From positions 1 through 64,000 of the forward strand of contig JACOEL010000006.1 in the NCBI GenBank assembly GCA_024998625.1: a stretch of DNA of 64,000 nucleotides, given 5' to 3'. Positions 43,859-51,450 of this stretch are shown here, piece by piece. Within the stretch, counting starts at the first letter, position 1; the number at the start of each line of letters is the position of its first letter. The stretch is from Nitrospira sp. (GTDB lineage Bacteria; Nitrospirota; Nitrospiria; Nitrospirales; Nitrospiraceae). A model generated the notes under the pieces. That model saw only the letters and a list, made by a program, of their open reading frames with translations, did not search any database and was not told the DNA's origin. Both the position numbers and the translations under genes were made by a program.

Positions 43859-44617
43859 TTATCCCTCGCTCGGCAGGCTCCGTGGTGATCCCGGATGGGG
43901 CGTTTCTTCAGGTCCTGGGGAGGGCAGTTCCTGTACGCGCAGGGGACGAGTGAGAAACAGGTTCAACAGCGCGATGAAAAAACTCCCGCCCACGATCCAG
44001 TAGCCGGTCTTCACAATCGTTTTGGTTCCTTCTTCGCGCATGTCCTTGGCGACCTCTGCCACCGTCTCCAGCAGGCGGTCCAGGGCGAGACTCACCTGCA
44101 TGACTTTCGGCCCTCCATTGTCGGCCGCATGAATTTCGGCCTTGCGACGCAGTTCCGCTGCTTCGGCTGCGGAACCGGCTCTCCATTCCTGGGAGAGCAG
44201 ATCCGTCGTCTGGCTGGCCACGTGGAAGTACTGATCGAGACTTTCGCGAACCGCTTGAATGTCTTTCTCTTCGCTCCGTCCGCTCCGTGACACACGCAGG
44301 CCGGCTGCGGCGTATCGATCCACGGCATGTTGAATACGTGCGCGTTGCGTCGGCAACGATTCGGTAATCCGTTCGAAGGTGGCCTGGTTCTCGGCCTCCA
44401 GCGACCGGATGATCGTATTTCGATAGCGAATGACGTCCGCTGAAATATGGGCAAGGTCCGCTGCGCCCAGGGTGTACTCGGTGTACATGATGCGCAGATC
44501 CTGATCGATACGACTGAGAGCCTGGCCGCTGACCCATCCCAACCCCGCGATCATAAGACTGATGATCAGTTGGTTCGTAGTGGGAAAGGACAATTTCAGG
44601 CGTGATGCCAATGACAC
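43859..44617 (-). CDS. membrane protein with four-helix-bundle sensor-like domain, no output domain
   Basis: A 252-residue protein with two membrane segments: residues about 15-35 (TTNQLIISLMIAGLGWV) and 205-225 (IVGGSFFIALLNLFL). Between them lies a helical periplasmic region resembling the 4HB_MCP ligand domain (QDLRIMYTEYTLGAADLA, IRYRNTIIRSLEAENQATFERI). Unlike chemoreceptors it has no HAMP, methyl-accepting or kinase domain; the cytoplasmic tail is about 25 residues and proline-rich. It lies 99 bases downstream of the ABC pair on the same strand, so it may belong to that operon and act with it. Role unknown. Confidence 0.65.
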   Translation of the reverse strand: MSLASRLKLSFPTTNQLIISLMIAGLGWVSGQALSRIDQDLRIMYTEYTLGAADLAHISADVIRYRNTIIRSLEAENQATFERITESLPTQRARIQHAVDRYAAAGLRVSRSGRSEEKDIQAVRESLDQYFHVASQTTDLLSQEWRAGSAAEAAELRRKAEIHAADNGGPKVMQVSLALDRLLETVAEVAKDMREEGTKTIVKTGYWIVGGSFFIALLNLFLTRPLRVQELPSPGPEETPHPGSPRSLPSEG

Positions 44618-44715: not shown

Positions 44716-46392
44716 TTAGTCCAGCACCACCCGTCGTTCGACCAGTTGGCTGACCTCCGGATCATTGGAGACGAACACCACCGACCAGGGTTCTTCCTTG
44801 GAACAGAGTCGGCGCAGCAGGGTGAGTCGCAGCGCCGGCTCAATGTTGTGGAGGCTGCCGTTGAAGATCAGCAGTTCCGGCCGGGTGACGATCATTCGAG
44901 CCAGGAGCACGCGAAGAACCTGGCTTCGAGTCAAGTTGGCGCCGTCTCCATGCACCAGAGTTTCCAGCCCCTGCGGCATGGCGTCGATTTCCTCTTCAAG
45001 CTCCACGAAGCGGAGTGCCCAGCTCAAATCTTCAAACTGAATCGAAGGGCGCTGCAGAGTGATATTTTCCTCCAGGGACCCGTCGAACAGTGTGGGATGG
45101 GAGTCCAGCATCAACCCCCGGCAGCGGTTCACGTAATTCAGCGACACATCGCGCAGGTCAATGTCGTTGTAGCGGATCACCCCGCCGCTTGGATGATACA
45201 GTCCGGCTAATACAAGCGCGAGCGAGGTTTTGCTTCTGCTGGTTCCGGAGAGGACGCTGATCTTTTCCCCCGGCATGACTTCCAGGTTGAATCGTTCGAA
45301 GAGCAGCGGTCCGTCCGGCGCGGCGAAGGACACGTCTTTGCACGTCAGGCGCACCCCCTGCAGTGAGGGATCGGGAAGCCAGGCGGCCACGGGGCCGGAG
45401 ACATCCTCCTTCGGCATGTCGAACAGTGTGGAGAGCTCATGGAGTGAGGTGGCGACATAGATGGCGGCATACATGCGCCGGGCGACGGTGTCGAGATTGA
45501 GCAACAGGGTGCCGACGATCACCTCCGCCGCGACGAACTGTCCGAGGGTGATGTCGCCGACCGACAGCAACCAGCCGCCGAGGCCGATCATGCCGCTATG
45601 CGCCACGGCCTGAAAAATGACCGTACTCTTGTATTGCGCGCCGCTCAGAATATCGGAACGCGTCTTCCGTGCCATCACATAGGCCTTGACCAGCGCATCG
45701 GTTTTTTTGAGGAGCAGCGGCAGGCTGTCCGTGGACTTGAAATGGAGCCGGTTGATGCCGATGTCCTGGAGCCAGTGAAAGGTCTGGTAGTGCAGTCGGG
45801 ATACCCGTTGTGTGATGCCGAGCCCGCCTCGACCGAAAAACGTCAGCAGAAAGGCAAACCCTGCGATCAGGAGCGTGTTATATCCCAGGAAGTAAGGATG
45901 GTACATGATCAGGATCGCCATGCCGATGGTGCCCGACACCGACACATTGATCACATCGACCAGCATGGCGACCAAGGCCCGGGGCAACAGTTCCGCCTCG
46001 ATGAACGTGTTGGTATGTTGAGGAAGAAAGACATTCTCGCGGAAGCGGGGCAGAGCTTCGGTAAAGGCGACGGCGAGCCGCGTATAGAGGCGCTGGACTA
46101 GGATTTCCACCGCCCGCGCTTGCAGGACCCGGAATGCCCCCGTCAGCAGCAGCGCGCCGAACATCGTGGCCACCAGAGTGATGATCATGATCGGTTGAAT
46201 GGCGAACGCGAAGGTGTTGACCAGTTCTTGCACCGTGAGCGGGACGATCAATGCAAACAGACCGATCACGACTGCATAGGACACGATGATGGCGAGGATG
46301 CGGCGCTCGAGCCCGATCAGGAGATTCAGGCGGGCAAGGATGGTCCAGGCGGAGGGTGTCGCAATGGGCGTTTCAGTGGCGGTGTCGTTCAC
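44716..46392 (-). CDS. ABC half-transporter with degenerate ATPase domain, second of pair
   Basis: A 558-residue protein of the bacterial exporter type: six-helix membrane domain (about 1-325), then an ATPase-like domain. Its ATPase motifs are lost: Walker A is G383TSRSK388T (Lys kept, Gly lost), the Q-loop is LMLDSHPTLF, the signature is LTRSQ, Walker B is LLIFNGS (no Asp-Glu), and the H-loop is replaced by SNDP. The neighbour 46533-48200 shows the same changes, so this is a conserved form, not recent decay. Starts with GTG at 46392. It is downstream of HlyD, TolC and the first ABC gene and probably forms a heterodimer with the latter. Confidence 0.82.
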   Translation of the reverse strand: MNDTATETPIATPSAWTILARLNLLIGLERRILAIIVSYAVVIGLFALIVPLTVQELVNTFAFAIQPIMIITLVATMFGALLLTGAFRVLQARAVEILVQRLYTRLAVAFTEALPRFRENVFLPQHTNTFIEAELLPRALVAMLVDVINVSVSGTIGMAILIMYHPYFLGYNTLLIAGFAFLLTFFGRGGLGITQRVSRLHYQTFHWLQDIGINRLHFKSTDSLPLLLKKTDALVKAYVMARKTRSDILSGAQYKSTVIFQAVAHSGMIGLGGWLLSVGDITLGQFVAAEVIVGTLLLNLDTVARRMYAAIYVATSLHELSTLFDMPKEDVSGPVAAWLPDPSLQGVRLTCKDVSFAAPDGPLLFERFNLEVMPGEKISVLSGTSRSKTSLALVLAGLYHPSGGVIRYNDIDLRDVSLNYVNRCRGLMLDSHPTLFDGSLEENITLQRPSIQFEDLSWALRFVELEEEIDAMPQGLETLVHGDGANLTRSQVLRVLLARMIVTRPELLIFNGSLHNIEPALRLTLLRRLCSKEEPWSVVFVSNDPEVSQLVERRVVLD

Positions 46393-46532
46393 ACAAGGGC
46401 TCGTATCGGTCGGCTGTGGGCCGCAGTGTGGGCGATTGCCTGATTTCTGTCAAGCTGAGCAGGTCCGGATGTGCGGAGCGCAGGGACATGAAGCGGGCGG
46501 GAACAGAAACGAAGAATCGATGCGTTGTCCGG

Positions 46533-48200
46533 CTAGTTCAGCATGATACGGCGGTCGACATGCGGGGTCAGGTTGGGATCATTCGAGACGAAAATGACCG
46601 ACCACGGCTCTTCTTTGCTGCAGAGGCGCCGGAGAATCGTCTCGCGCATCGCGGGATGCATGTTGTGCAGGATCCCCTCAAAAATGAGGAGTTGCGGCCG
46701 ACCCAGGATCGCCCGAGCGACCAGGATGCGCACAATGTGCGTCGGTGCGAAAATTTTTCCGGCGGCCCGGACGTGGGTTTTGAGGCCCTGCGGGAGGGCA
46801 TCAACTTCCTCTTCCAGCTCGGTAAAGCGTAACGCCCATCGCACATCACTGTAGGGGATATATTCCCGTCCGAGCACGATGTTCTCTTCGAGCGTGCCTT
46901 CGAACAACGACAACTGGGAATCCAGGATGAATCCTCTGAACCGGTTGACGGAATCCAGGTTAAGGTGCCGGAGGTCGACGCCGTTGTAGCGGATCACGCC
47001 GGAGGTGGGTGTTTCCAGACCGCCCAGTACCCGGGCCAGCGCGGTTTTGGCCATCGTGCTGTCCGCATAGATGCCGATTTTTTCGCCTGGCGTAACTTCC
47101 AGGTTGAAGCGCTCGAAGACGGCTGGGCCGCCGGCGGGGGCAAATGTCAGATCTTTGCAGGTGACGCGAATGCCGTGCACGGTCGGGTCTGGGAGCGGGA
47201 TGGAGAGGGTCGCCGTATCCTGGTCCTTCGGTAGCGAGAATAAGAAGCTCAGCTCCGTCAATGCCGTCAGGAAGTAATAGATATGCCCCATCCGTTTCAC
47301 GACCCCGTCGAAGCTCGACAGGATGCCGCTTACGACGACTTCGGCGGCGACAAATTGTCCGAGCGTCAACTGCCCGATGCCCAGGAGCCAGCCGGCCGTC
47401 GCAATCAGACCGCTATGCGCAATGGCCTGCCAGCCCAGTGAGCCCAGATATTGCCGGATCAAAATTCCAAATCTGGTACGACGGATGCCGACGTAGGTAT
47501 CCAGGAGTTGGTCCGTCTTCTTGACCAGCAGAGCCTGGCTGTCGGTCGACTTGAAATGGAGCAGGTTATAGGCAATTTCCTGAAACCAGTGCAGGGTGTT
47601 GTACTTGGCGTGGGAGAGGTTCATGTCGGCCTTGAGGCCGCCATGGCTCATGAGGAAAAAGACCACGTTGAATCCGACCAGCAGGATCGCGTTATACAGC
47701 AGGAAATACGGGTGATAAAACACAAGGATGGTCATGCCGACCGCGCCGCCGACAATGACGTTGATCAGATCCACCAGTAGGACCGAGACCGCCCGTTGCA
47801 TGAGAATGGTTTCGACGAAGAAATTTGCAAAGCGCGGTTTAAAGCCCTGGTAGCGCAGGTGCGGGAGCTGCTGAGCCATGGCAATGGCGACCCTCGCGAA
47901 AATGCGACGCTCCAACACTTCGACCGCGTAATATTGCAGGGCCCGGAAGGCACCGACAAATAACAGGGCGGCCACCATGACGGCGGCCAGGGTGACGATG
48001 GTAATGGGTTGGAGCGCGAACGCGAAAGTATTGACGAGCTCCTGAACCGTGAGGGGAACGATCAGGGAGAAGAGCCCGATGGCGATCGAATAGGAAACGA
48101 TGAGTCCCAGGACCCGCCGTTCCAGGCGGAAGAGGAGGCCGAGATGGCCGATGACGGCCTGGAACAGATTGCTCTGATTATCGGAATGGTCCTGGGCCAT
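46533..48200 (-). CDS. ABC half-transporter with degenerate ATPase domain, first of pair
   Basis: A 555-residue paralogue of 44716-46392, with the same six-helix membrane domain (TVQELVNTFAFALQPI near 51-66, FYHPYF near 161) and a degenerate ATPase domain: Walker A position is A379DSTMAK385T, the Q-loop FILDSQLSLF, the signature FAPTH, Walker B LLIFEGI, and SNDP instead of the H-loop. The Walker A lysine is the only one kept. Both proteins share LEENI after the Q-loop and LHN after Walker B. It follows TolC by 134 bases. Possibly a secretion channel that is gated but not driven by ATP in the usual way. Confidence 0.82.
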   Translation of the reverse strand: MAQDHSDNQSNLFQAVIGHLGLLFRLERRVLGLIVSYSIAIGLFSLIVPLTVQELVNTFAFALQPITIVTLAAVMVAALLFVGAFRALQYYAVEVLERRIFARVAIAMAQQLPHLRYQGFKPRFANFFVETILMQRAVSVLLVDLINVIVGGAVGMTILVFYHPYFLLYNAILLVGFNVVFFLMSHGGLKADMNLSHAKYNTLHWFQEIAYNLLHFKSTDSQALLVKKTDQLLDTYVGIRRTRFGILIRQYLGSLGWQAIAHSGLIATAGWLLGIGQLTLGQFVAAEVVVSGILSSFDGVVKRMGHIYYFLTALTELSFLFSLPKDQDTATLSIPLPDPTVHGIRVTCKDLTFAPAGGPAVFERFNLEVTPGEKIGIYADSTMAKTALARVLGGLETPTSGVIRYNGVDLRHLNLDSVNRFRGFILDSQLSLFEGTLEENIVLGREYIPYSDVRWALRFTELEEEVDALPQGLKTHVRAAGKIFAPTHIVRILVARAILGRPQLLIFEGILHNMHPAMRETILRRLCSKEEPWSVIFVSNDPNLTPHVDRRIMLN

Positions 48201-48334: not shown

Positions 48335-49822
48335 CTATTTGGAGAAGCTCGCCCCGACGCGGTAGTTCACCGGCGTCGCGGATGGCTGACTCCGTGCCCA
48401 GGTGCCGGTGGCCCACTGATACAGGGCCAGCGCCTTCTGATAGTCTGCCTTCGCTCGCACCAGCTGCATTTCCGAATCGACGGAGTTTCGCTCCCGCAGG
48501 TTCACAAAGAGCACGCTCGTCGCGCCTAAACTGAAACGGAACCGCTCGCCTTCCTCAAGCGTCTTGGCCATGCGGAGCGATTCTGCCGCTGCGGTGACCC
48601 GCTCCTTCGCGCGCTCGATGGCCGAGAGCGCATTGTCGACATCGACGACCACTTGCTGCTCCCGGTATTTCTGTACCATCACCAGACGATCGGCCTGTGC
48701 TTGCGCTTCCATCACTTCACCGCGGCTTCTCCGCTGCAGGATCGGCATGCGCAGTTCCACGCCGAACCGATAGCCGAGGCCGAGGACGAATTTCTCCGGA
48801 GCCCGTGCCGGTGCCGCTTCGAGATCGAGACTGGGCAGCAGGTTGTTTTTGGCCAATTCCAGGTCGATGTTGTTGACCTTGGCTTCGATATCGACCTCGC
48901 GAATCTCCGGCCGGTCGGTTTTGGCCTGGAGCTTGTCGGCTCGCACGATTTCAGGCGTCGGCACGGCGGTCGGCGGCGGGAAATCCGGCGCTCGCTCGAG
49001 TTGTGGCGCGGTCGGAGTCTGGTTTTCCCAGAGGAACATCGACATCTTATATTGTTCCTGCTCCACGGCTCGTTGTGCGCCGATGGCGATCTCGCGCCGG
49101 CGCTGGACTTCCTGCCCGGCTTCGACGACGTCGAGCGGGGCGACGGCGCCGGCTTTCGCTCTGCCTTCGACCTGCCGCAGCCGTTCTTCCGCGACCCCCA
49201 GGGCCCGGCGCTGCACGTCCACGTACTTTGCCGCAGAGACCCAATCCCAGAACTGGGTTGCGGCTGCGAGGAACAGGTCCTGCCTGGTTTGGGAGATTTT
49301 GACATCGGCGCGTGGATCGGCCAACTCCGATCGCTGGAGTTCGGCATTCTCCGGGTTGATCATGAGCCCTTTGAGGAGGGGCAGGAAGCCACCGAGAATG
49401 ACCTGTTGGCCGTTGCCGAAACCGAGGTCTGGGATCTTGGCGTCACCGATGGACTGCCGAACGCCAGCGCTGCCCCGGAACCCCCAAGGCGTGCGCGCTT
49501 CGACCAGCGTATCGTTGAAGCCGACGCTTTGTGTTTTGGTGGTTCCCTTGTCGATAAATCGTTCGATTTCCGTATCGTTCACGAGGACGGGCTCGAAGGC
49601 GCCCAGGGCTTTGAGCATTTTCCCGCGCGCCGAAGTTTTTTCGGTGCCGGCTCCCTTCAGCAGGGGATGGGACCGATCGATCCAGGCGTGGACTTCGTTC
49701 AACGAGAGCGGAATAGGCGGGAGCGTGCGTGGTTTTGCCGTCTCGTCCGCCGACAGACCAGTGTCAGGCAGCGAGCAGAGCCCACAAGCGGCGAGAGCAA
49801 GTACCCAGGCATGGATCTTCAT
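48335..49822 (-). CDS. TolC-family outer membrane efflux protein
   Basis: A 495-residue outer-membrane protein with two TolC-type repeats: long helices (LYVDVQRRALGVAEERLRQ-like segments, RAKAGAVAPLDVVEAGQEVQRR) and beta-strand regions, including a LGYRFGVELRMPI strand near the middle. A short signal with ALAACG (Cys13) may be a lipobox. ATG 49822 has AAGGAG 7 bases upstream. It is between HlyD and the ABC pair, so it is the exit duct of the same complex. Length fits the family. Confidence 0.87.
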   Translation of the reverse strand: MKIHAWVLALAACGLCSLPDTGLSADETAKPRTLPPIPLSLNEVHAWIDRSHPLLKGAGTEKTSARGKMLKALGAFEPVLVNDTEIERFIDKGTTKTQSVGFNDTLVEARTPWGFRGSAGVRQSIGDAKIPDLGFGNGQQVILGGFLPLLKGLMINPENAELQRSELADPRADVKISQTRQDLFLAAATQFWDWVSAAKYVDVQRRALGVAEERLRQVEGRAKAGAVAPLDVVEAGQEVQRRREIAIGAQRAVEQEQYKMSMFLWENQTPTAPQLERAPDFPPPTAVPTPEIVRADKLQAKTDRPEIREVDIEAKVNNIDLELAKNNLLPSLDLEAAPARAPEKFVLGLGYRFGVELRMPILQRRSRGEVMEAQAQADRLVMVQKYREQQVVVDVDNALSAIERAKERVTAAAESLRMAKTLEEGERFRFSLGATSVLFVNLRERNSVDSEMQLVRAKADYQKALALYQWATGTWARSQPSATPVNYRVGASFSK

Positions 49823-49910
49823 GAAACGCACTCCTTTCTGAGTATAAACAAGAGAGAGCAAGGTCGAAGGAAATGAGCGCTTCGGCCTGGCGGCTGATCG
49901 GAAGGGCCTG

Positions 49911-51347
49911 TTACTTGGCCCCGCGACCGGCTTTCGGCAAGAGTGTATCGATCAAGCTCGGGGGCCGTTCCTGGTAGTCGGGCGGAAACAGATTGAAGCG
50001 GCGCCACAGCTCGTACCAAAGCGGGACACGATTGAGAATGACCCACCCCATGGCTTTGGTGCCCTGGCGGACATGCTCTTGCGGAGGCCAGGGACGTTCC
50101 TCCAGGTCGGGGACGACCCAGAAGCGGAAGTTGCCTTTTCCGTCGTCCACCTGGTCAATGACTTTGATGACGCCATTATAGGTGCCGGCCATCAGTTCCG
50201 GCCAGGCCGGCAACGGAATGGCGGGAATACCATAGAAGAGAATCTTGACCTTCCGGCCGACATTCAGCAAGGGCGCGTCGATGCCGTCGGCGACCATTTC
50301 GATGGCCTTGTCCGTGCTGCTCGGTGAAATTCTGACGAGTTTGTCCCCGGGACGCACGGTTTCGCCCGCGCCGGCCTGCGCCATTTTCACCACGGTGCCG
50401 TCGATGGGAGAAAGAATGCGGCCGGCCACGCGCCGCTGGTTTGCATTGGAGAGGCGTAACGAAACGTCTGCGACTTGATCGGCGGCTCGCGCTGCTTCTC
50501 CGATCGAGGCATCGCGCGCCGCTTCCGCATCGAGGAGACGTTGCAGGACTTCCGCGTTCACCTGTTCCCGCCCGAAGCTCAGTGCCTTCATGCCTTGTTC
50601 GGCGGCGGCCAAGTTGGCCTGGGCACCTTGCAAGTCTGCTTTGCTGGCTATGGCGGCTTGAATGGTGAGTTCCAGTTCGCGTTGGGAGACCAGGCCTTGT
50701 TGCGCCAATTGCTGGTGCCGTTCGACGTTGAGCTCGGCAGTGGCGACGGCAATCTTGGCGGCTTCGATTTTCTGCCTTGCTTCGCGCACCTTGCTTTCCG
50801 CCTCGAGAACGCGGGCACCTGCCGAAGGGACGGCCGCCTTCACGAGGTTTTGCATTTCTTTGATCCGCTTATCGAGCTGATCGGCTCGGCTCAACGCCGC
50901 CTTCCGGGTGTCCTCCAGTGCTTTCTTGCGTTGTTCGAGGAGGCTCAAGAGATCCGGGGCCATGAAGTTCGGATCGTAGTCATCGAGTTCGAGAATCACA
51001 TCGCCGGTCTTGACTCGCACGCCTTCGAAGACATGCCATTTTCTGATGCGGCCGGTGATCTGTGCTTCGACGTCCTGCGGTCGTTCGAATGGCGTGTAGG
51101 CCGAAAGTTGCCCGGTCACGGTGATGGTTTGCGTCCAGGGTACGAATGCGACGATGAGAATGAAGAAGCCGACCAGGAGAATGGCCAGCCGGGAGGAGAA
51201 GCGAAGCCGCTCGGGAATCTGGACCGCCTCCCACGACTGGAGTTGGGTCGATGTCGCTAGATCATCGACCGCCATTTCATCCAGGCCCGTGCGCTGGGTC
51301 ACCAAGGAGCGAATTCTGCTTTTGAGCCCTTCACGGATACGCTGCAC
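49911..51347 (-). CDS. HlyD-family periplasmic adaptor
   Basis: A 478-residue membrane-fusion protein. One N-terminal membrane segment (LAILLVGFFILIVAFVPW) is followed by a biotinyl-lipoyl half-domain (GRIRKWHVFEGVRVKTGDVILELDD), a long coiled-coil hairpin (about 130-260), the second half of the lipoyl domain (RILSPIDGTVVKM) and a beta-barrel. GTG 51347 was chosen for GGAGG 6 bases upstream; an upstream frame to 51422 exists. It is the first gene of the operon and is transcribed away from purE. Confidence 0.87.
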   Translation of the reverse strand: MQRIREGLKSRIRSLVTQRTGLDEMAVDDLATSTQLQSWEAVQIPERLRFSSRLAILLVGFFILIVAFVPWTQTITVTGQLSAYTPFERPQDVEAQITGRIRKWHVFEGVRVKTGDVILELDDYDPNFMAPDLLSLLEQRKKALEDTRKAALSRADQLDKRIKEMQNLVKAAVPSAGARVLEAESKVREARQKIEAAKIAVATAELNVERHQQLAQQGLVSQRELELTIQAAIASKADLQGAQANLAAAEQGMKALSFGREQVNAEVLQRLLDAEAARDASIGEAARAADQVADVSLRLSNANQRRVAGRILSPIDGTVVKMAQAGAGETVRPGDKLVRISPSSTDKAIEMVADGIDAPLLNVGRKVKILFYGIPAIPLPAWPELMAGTYNGVIKVIDQVDDGKGNFRFWVVPDLEERPWPPQEHVRQGTKAMGWVILNRVPLWYELWRRFNLFPPDYQERPPSLIDTLLPKAGRGAK

Positions 51348-51450
51348 GTGTCCCCTCCAGGGCACAGTCAATGACAGAGAACCACACAGCGTATCATAGT
51401 GGATTGCGGAGGACTTGGTCAATTCAATGAGGGGTTCCGTCGGGTGCGGC

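Follow-up and report, generated by a model that had tools for sequence, protein, structure and literature searches.

We report here a gene cassette of Nitrospira sp. which resembles a type I secretion system (T1SS) and in which both ABC exporter proteins lack the catalytic residues of ATP hydrolysis. The loss of these motifs is a trait of the whole protein family and not an accident of the two proteins. An ATP-driven motor is a defining feature of both type I secretion and ABC export. We consider it very likely that export by this system is no longer powered by ATP hydrolysis of its ABC protein, although this is an inference for which direct evidence of transport is lacking. The window, that is the whole stretch of 64,000 nucleotides analysed (contig JACOEL010000006.1 of assembly GCA_024998625.1), carries five genes in a row on the minus strand, separated by gaps of approximately 50-140 bases. 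The first gene (49911..51422) encodes a HlyD-like periplasmic adaptor of 503 aa that matches Pfam HlyD_3; its match to TIGR01843 (type_I_hlyD, 8e-21) is under the curated cut-off, and its orthologues occupy the same relative position in most loci of the family. It is followed by the gene of a TolC-like outer-membrane channel of 508 aa (48335..49861; Pfam OEP, 2e-31), which is a conserved neighbour, and by the genes of two degenerate ABC exporters, A (46533..48200, 555 aa) and B (44716..46392, 558 aa), paralogues with 54% identity. The last gene (43859..44617) encodes a membrane protein of 252 aa with a four-helix-bundle sensory domain of the MCP type (Pfam 4HB_MCP_1, 2.4e-9), in which no signalling domain was detected; the four-helix-bundle gene is conserved beside the ABC gene in many Nitrospiraceae loci. 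The flanking genes, which we take to be purE/purK-like and pseudouridine-synthase-like genes, named from their translations, run in the opposite direction, so that the five minus-strand genes look like one operon.

Both open reading frames A and B were confirmed at these positions as full-length ABC exporters. Pfam ABC_tran is barely above its cut-off of 25 bits for the two proteins (30.6 and 31.1 bits), no Pfam model of an ABC membrane domain matches either of them, and among NCBIfam models those of T1SS or bacteriocin ABC exporters score best, though far under their cut-offs. In A, the six-helix membrane domain (TMD) is complete, and the nucleotide-binding domain (NBD), which has no catalytic residues, stops at the point where the usual C-terminal tail would start. 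The remnant Walker A of A reads ADSTMAKT (residues 379-386; 47043..47066, this and the following sites on the minus strand), with Lys385 retained and the glycines gone. The Q-loop site holds Asp427-Ser428 (46917..46922), the signature LSGGQ is replaced by FAPTH (residues 484-488; 46737..46751), the Walker B site reads LLIFEG (residues 504-509; 46674..46691) with Asp changed to Glu508 and the catalytic Glu to Gly509, and the H-loop site SNDP (residues 539-542; 46575..46586), preceded by Val, has Asn540 in place of His. B aligns with GTSRSKT at Walker A, LDS at the Q-loop, LTRSQ at the signature, N-G at Walker B and VSNDP at the H-loop. Neither protein has the Q-loop Gln, LSGGQ, the catalytic Glu or the H-loop His in the alignment, and the full motif set expected of an active ABC transporter ATPase is not present. 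A complementary intact site formed across A and B was considered and rejected, since the catalytic residues are in neither protein. A preliminary description, made from the sequence alone, had claimed that both ATPase domains are degenerate at these four motifs and that the Walker A Lys survives while the glycine pattern is gone, and both statements held. Its claim that the Q-loop Gln becomes Asp had to be refined, as the Gln aligns with Ser428 and the Asp is the neighbouring residue; the change of the H-loop to SNDP was confirmed, with the His itself replaced by Asn.

The extent of the loss was evident from an alignment of 154 distinct full-length homologues from Nitrospirota with eight intact exporters as controls. 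The catalytic Glu and the H-loop His were present in none of the 154 homologues and the Q-loop Gln in two, while all three residues were found in the eight canonical controls. The Walker A Lys was kept in 121 homologues and missing from 33, and the Walker B Asp was kept in 115. Given that these two residues are often retained and those of hydrolysis are not, many members may still be able to bind nucleotide. Conservation extends to the replacements (Gly509 and Asp541 in 150/154 each, Asp427 and Ser428 in 137/154 each), and the place of the H-loop His is taken by Asn in 102 and by Thr in 43 homologues. HlyD, TolC and the ABC gene travel together in the family in an HlyD-TolC-ABC order that recurs across genera. 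The ABC genes number one or two, the four-helix-bundle gene is often present as well, and the conserved gene set includes no ATPase gene. No relatives were found in viral collections. One sub-group has three successive TolC-like proteins together with one degenerate ABC protein and one HlyD (L166:2914-10985, L167, L168, L178, L184 and L185).

Homologues of A and B occur genus-wide in the Nitrospira relatives searched, and a protein 99% identical to A is present in Candidatus Nitrospira defluvii. Among close Nitrospira sequences, the median dN/dS was 0.039 for the TMD and 0.037 for the NBD of A, and 0.078 and 0.071, respectively, for those of B; these values are rough, as they were obtained by a simple counting method with dS near 1. 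The low dN/dS, equal in both domains, argues that A and B are not decaying, and an NBD that is as constrained as the membrane domain within Nitrospira points to a non-hydrolytic task of this domain in these species. The view that the proteins form a selected, conserved subfamily rather than decaying copies is thus supported by homologues that are all degenerate, by strong purifying selection on both domains and by the recurring gene order. Intact closest relatives or relaxed selection, which would have refuted it, were looked for and not found.

Three species (G056, G058 and G326) of a single Nitrospirales genus have gone further, as their ABC gene stops after the membrane domain (337-346 aa), and no NBD remnant was found downstream of these short genes. 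TolC is in place in all three, and so is HlyD where the contig stretch reaches it. The dN/dS among the membrane-domain-only proteins (0.23-0.29) is somewhat above that of HlyD/TolC (0.16) and well under 1, so that they remain under purifying selection. Any function of the system in these species is exerted with no NBD of its own, and this strengthens the earlier claim, supported here, of a machine that is complete save for a working ATPase.

Beyond Nitrospirota, tblastn of plasmid records identified full-length relatives with 23-30% identity in Persicobacter, Aureibacter, Riemerella and several sphingomonads. In these records they are misleadingly annotated as ABC transporter ATP-binding proteins, and the Bacteroidota and sphingomonad relatives lie in ABC-HlyD-TolC cassettes where annotated. 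Their NBDs are also degenerate, with different replacement residues, and are least degenerate in Persicobacter and Riemerella, the Walker A of the latter looking intact. The phyletic range is drawn from plasmid records and from the search of Nitrospirota, as nearly all of the best loci in the contig scan were from Nitrospira. Residues common to the whole cross-phylum sample are L46, P49, Q53, G155, H163, F166, S196, W205, Y236, Q250, G281, A285 and E287 in the membrane domain and a single one, G401, in the NBD. Whereas intact exporters share a median identity of 41.7% in the NBD and 18.4% in the TMD, degenerate proteins of different phyla share 17-25% and 24-25%, respectively. The NBD is no longer the better-conserved half between phyla, which suggests that it has been freed from the constraint imposed by ATP hydrolysis. 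In trees built from whole proteins and from the membrane domain only, the latter being independent of the NBD, all degenerate proteins split from the eight intact exporters with a branch support of 100/100. A single origin of the degenerate clade is therefore likely, but it remains unproven because the branches are long and the sample of intact exporters is small. The Persicobacter relatives carry an N-terminal extension of about 150 aa (L158:5500-6000, L163:5542-6050), possibly a C39-like domain as in HlyB. Genes for DabA (DUF2309) adjoin the cassette in three Nitrospirales species and on one Sphingobium plasmid (L041:5504-11731, L042:997-7210, L037:14987-18001 and L211:82-3914), and three of these four loci also have a NuoL-like DabB partner; this may be due to chance.

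An AlphaFold2 model of A (pLDDT 75.6, pTM 0.52) predicts a complete exporter fold, with a six-helix membrane domain and an NBD arranged as in type IV ABC exporters; according to this model, no helix of a working exporter is missing from the membrane domain. Among solved structures, A is closest to HlyB of the HlyB/HlyD complex (Z 28.7 and rmsd 2.8 over 531 residues). The conserved polar residues Q53, H163 and Q282 are predicted near the periplasmic end of the helices, the topology being inferred from the exporter fold.

Among the known systems, the type I secretion systems (HlyB/HlyD/TolC and those of the LssB and PrtD types) are similar in their gene set, as HlyD, TolC and an ABC exporter are encoded together here, and in the fold of A, which is nearest to HlyB; the Pfam matches confirmed the HlyD and TolC genes that had been named before. 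In contrast to those systems, the requirement that the ABC component hydrolyse ATP is not met, as judged by sequence only, since the catalytic residues are absent in both paralogues; A and B have no N-terminal peptidase-like domain, and the operon contains no substrate gene. In a T1SS, such a secreted substrate, often an RTX protein, would be expected nearby. The only RTX-repeat protein found in the genome is an open frame of 2186 aa on another contig, approximately 6 kb from an intact ABC exporter of 733 aa (G000:C24:48365-53218, L213-L220). RTX secretion by the operon was therefore rejected, and the genes for ordinary type I secretion probably lie elsewhere in the genome. The heterodimeric type IV exporters (TmrAB, TM287/288, TAP and BmrCD) likewise consist of two paralogous half-transporters with NBD replacements and a closely similar fold, and a degenerate site in one half of such heterodimers is well known and its role has been reviewed (PMC7756269). 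However, those proteins keep one composite site with catalytic residues, which A and B do not, and many of the relatives are encoded by a single degenerate gene.

The SbmA-like peptide transporters (SLiPTs; SbmA, BacA) share with the family an ABC-exporter-type membrane domain without a working NBD, and the authors describing SbmA consider them to be descendants of ABC transporters whose NBDs were lost (PMC13316013). SLiPTs are importers that have no coupling helices, an extra TM0 and a glutamate ladder (PMC13316013), whereas most members of the present family retain a remnant NBD and the HlyD-TolC partners. A membrane domain without any NBD is not given in A and B, which keep the remnant, and is restricted to the relatives in G056, G058 and G326, which appear to be independent of the SbmA case. 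With respect to a glutamate ladder, E54 and E130 are invariant in Nitrospirota, neither of them nor any other carboxylate in the membrane domain is universal across phyla, and these positions have not been mapped onto SbmA. E287 is mostly kept in Nitrospirota, with Gln in 23/154, including several loci of the sub-group with three TolC-like proteins. LmrA and MsbA demonstrate that ion gradients can drive the membrane domain of an ABC exporter or be coupled to it (PMC6155054, PMC4979069), and ethidium transport by LmrA in liposomes responds to imposed ion gradients (PMC6155054), although the NBDs of both proteins are intact. The proton-coupling Glu314 of LmrA is probably not the counterpart of E287; judged from spacing, without a direct alignment, E287 lies 98 residues before the Walker A Lys and Glu314 lies 74, and the two probably occupy different places. 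T1SS-type parts without an ABC ATPase are also known from loci in Nitrospirae, among others, that combine a secondary SecA_DEAD protein with HlyD-domain proteins (Kamneva et al. 2015, PMC4452313). Those loci have a second SecA and no ABC homologue, in contrast to the genome studied here with its single SecA_DEAD match.

We hypothesize that the operon encodes a T1SS-like tripartite exporter which needs no ATP hydrolysis of its own and is most likely a secondary transporter using the proton motive force or ion gradients, a reading that in our judgement could as well be wrong as right. In this view, TolC in the outer membrane and HlyD in the periplasm would join a membrane dimer of the ABC exporter fold, probably an A/B heterodimer here and the product of a single gene in many relatives. 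The NBDs would have turned into non-hydrolysing domains that serve cytoplasmic dimerisation or gating and may bind nucleotide where the Walker A Lys is kept, and the membrane domain would act as the secondary transporter. Four supports are shown, namely the absence of the hydrolysis residues, the strong selection, the conservation of the conduit partners and the dispensability of the NBD in some lineages. The most economical source of power would be an ion gradient or the proton motive force, as in the precedents SbmA (PMC13316013) and LmrA (PMC6155054). This is inferred and not shown, and we put it forward with reservation, given that there is no direct evidence of transport or proton coupling and no single universal acidic residue in the membrane domain. 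Among the titratable residues, His163 alone is both nearly universal and rare in intact exporters; in the model, it lies at the TM3-TM4 loop.

Of the competing explanations, a role of the ABC protein as a sensor or assembly scaffold, in which the membrane domain would hold HlyD-TolC or bind a ligand and would serve signalling or gating without transport, remains possible. In its favour, degenerate ABC paralogues also occur alone, without HlyD/TolC, and in four genomes such a paralogue is directly followed by genes for a PAS-HisKA kinase and for an NtrC-type regulator (L029:2973-7513, L030:5952-10492, L172:7178-11707 and L174:2812-7360); a sensory role is conceivable for these paralogues, which suit it better than the exporter reading. 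Moreover, the last gene of the operon bears an MCP-type sensory domain, and some of the most conserved polar residues are those predicted near the periplasmic helix ends. On the other hand, the partners that recur across phyla, HlyD and TolC, form an export conduit, and the six-helix exporter fold is fully retained. Less probable is that A and B form a membrane platform which receives its energy from an ATPase encoded elsewhere, such as an intact half-transporter pairing with A or B or a soluble ATPase docking on the remnant NBD. The genome has many intact ABC ATPases, the NBD is conserved within Nitrospira, and a second SecA has been proposed as the replacement ATPase of other HlyD-containing loci (PMC4452313). 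However, the operon has no other ATPase gene, the cassette is self-contained in three phyla, and the membrane-domain-only relatives offer no NBD for docking. A second SecA as the motor was rejected, and the proposal does not apply here, as the genome has a single SecA of 905 aa. Of the two energy sources suggested in the preliminary description, the partner ATPase has thus lost one candidate, and the membrane potential stays a proposal. Slow ATP hydrolysis by NBDs with unusual residues, which would make this an ordinary if divergent T1SS, is very unlikely; the frequent retention of the Walker A Lys and Walker B Asp, the strong constraint on the NBD in Nitrospira and the Walker A of Riemerella speak for it, but the catalytic Glu, H-loop His, Q-loop Gln and LSGGQ are jointly absent, even the Lys is gone in 33 of the 154 homologues, and three species have no NBD. 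Decay of a formerly active exporter, of which the genes would be the remnants, is practically ruled out by the dN/dS of 0.04-0.08, the open frames and the replacements conserved across the genus, despite a frame change at the membrane-NBD junction in the relative G186 (L169:7382-9481), which affects one of two ABC copies and for which a sequencing error cannot be excluded.

In a bolder version of the secondary-transporter hypothesis, which we regard as slightly less likely than not, a clade in Nitrospirota, Bacteroidota and sphingomonads gave up ATP hydrolysis and became the membrane-potential-driven inner-membrane pump of HlyD-TolC systems, with its present lineages at various points between a degenerate NBD and full loss of the NBD and thereby representing a second, independent route from primary to secondary transport besides SbmA. 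If true, a T1SS-like cassette that is widespread and maintained by selection, with its motor dead or absent, would mean that the conduit can be powered differently, and its members would be natural intermediates of the change from a primary to a secondary transporter. A search of the open-licence literature yielded no account of a family of T1SS-like cassettes whose members are all without a hydrolysing NBD. The hypothesis is directly testable, since a homologue is found on a plasmid of the cultured strain Novosphingobium aromaticivorans DSM 12444. The genome studied here also has a third paralogue on a further contig (C14), beside GT2 and PMT-type glycosyltransferases (L028:5176-9862, L047:5348-10037 and L044), and the PMT-type glycosyltransferase beside it is conserved in other Nitrospira.
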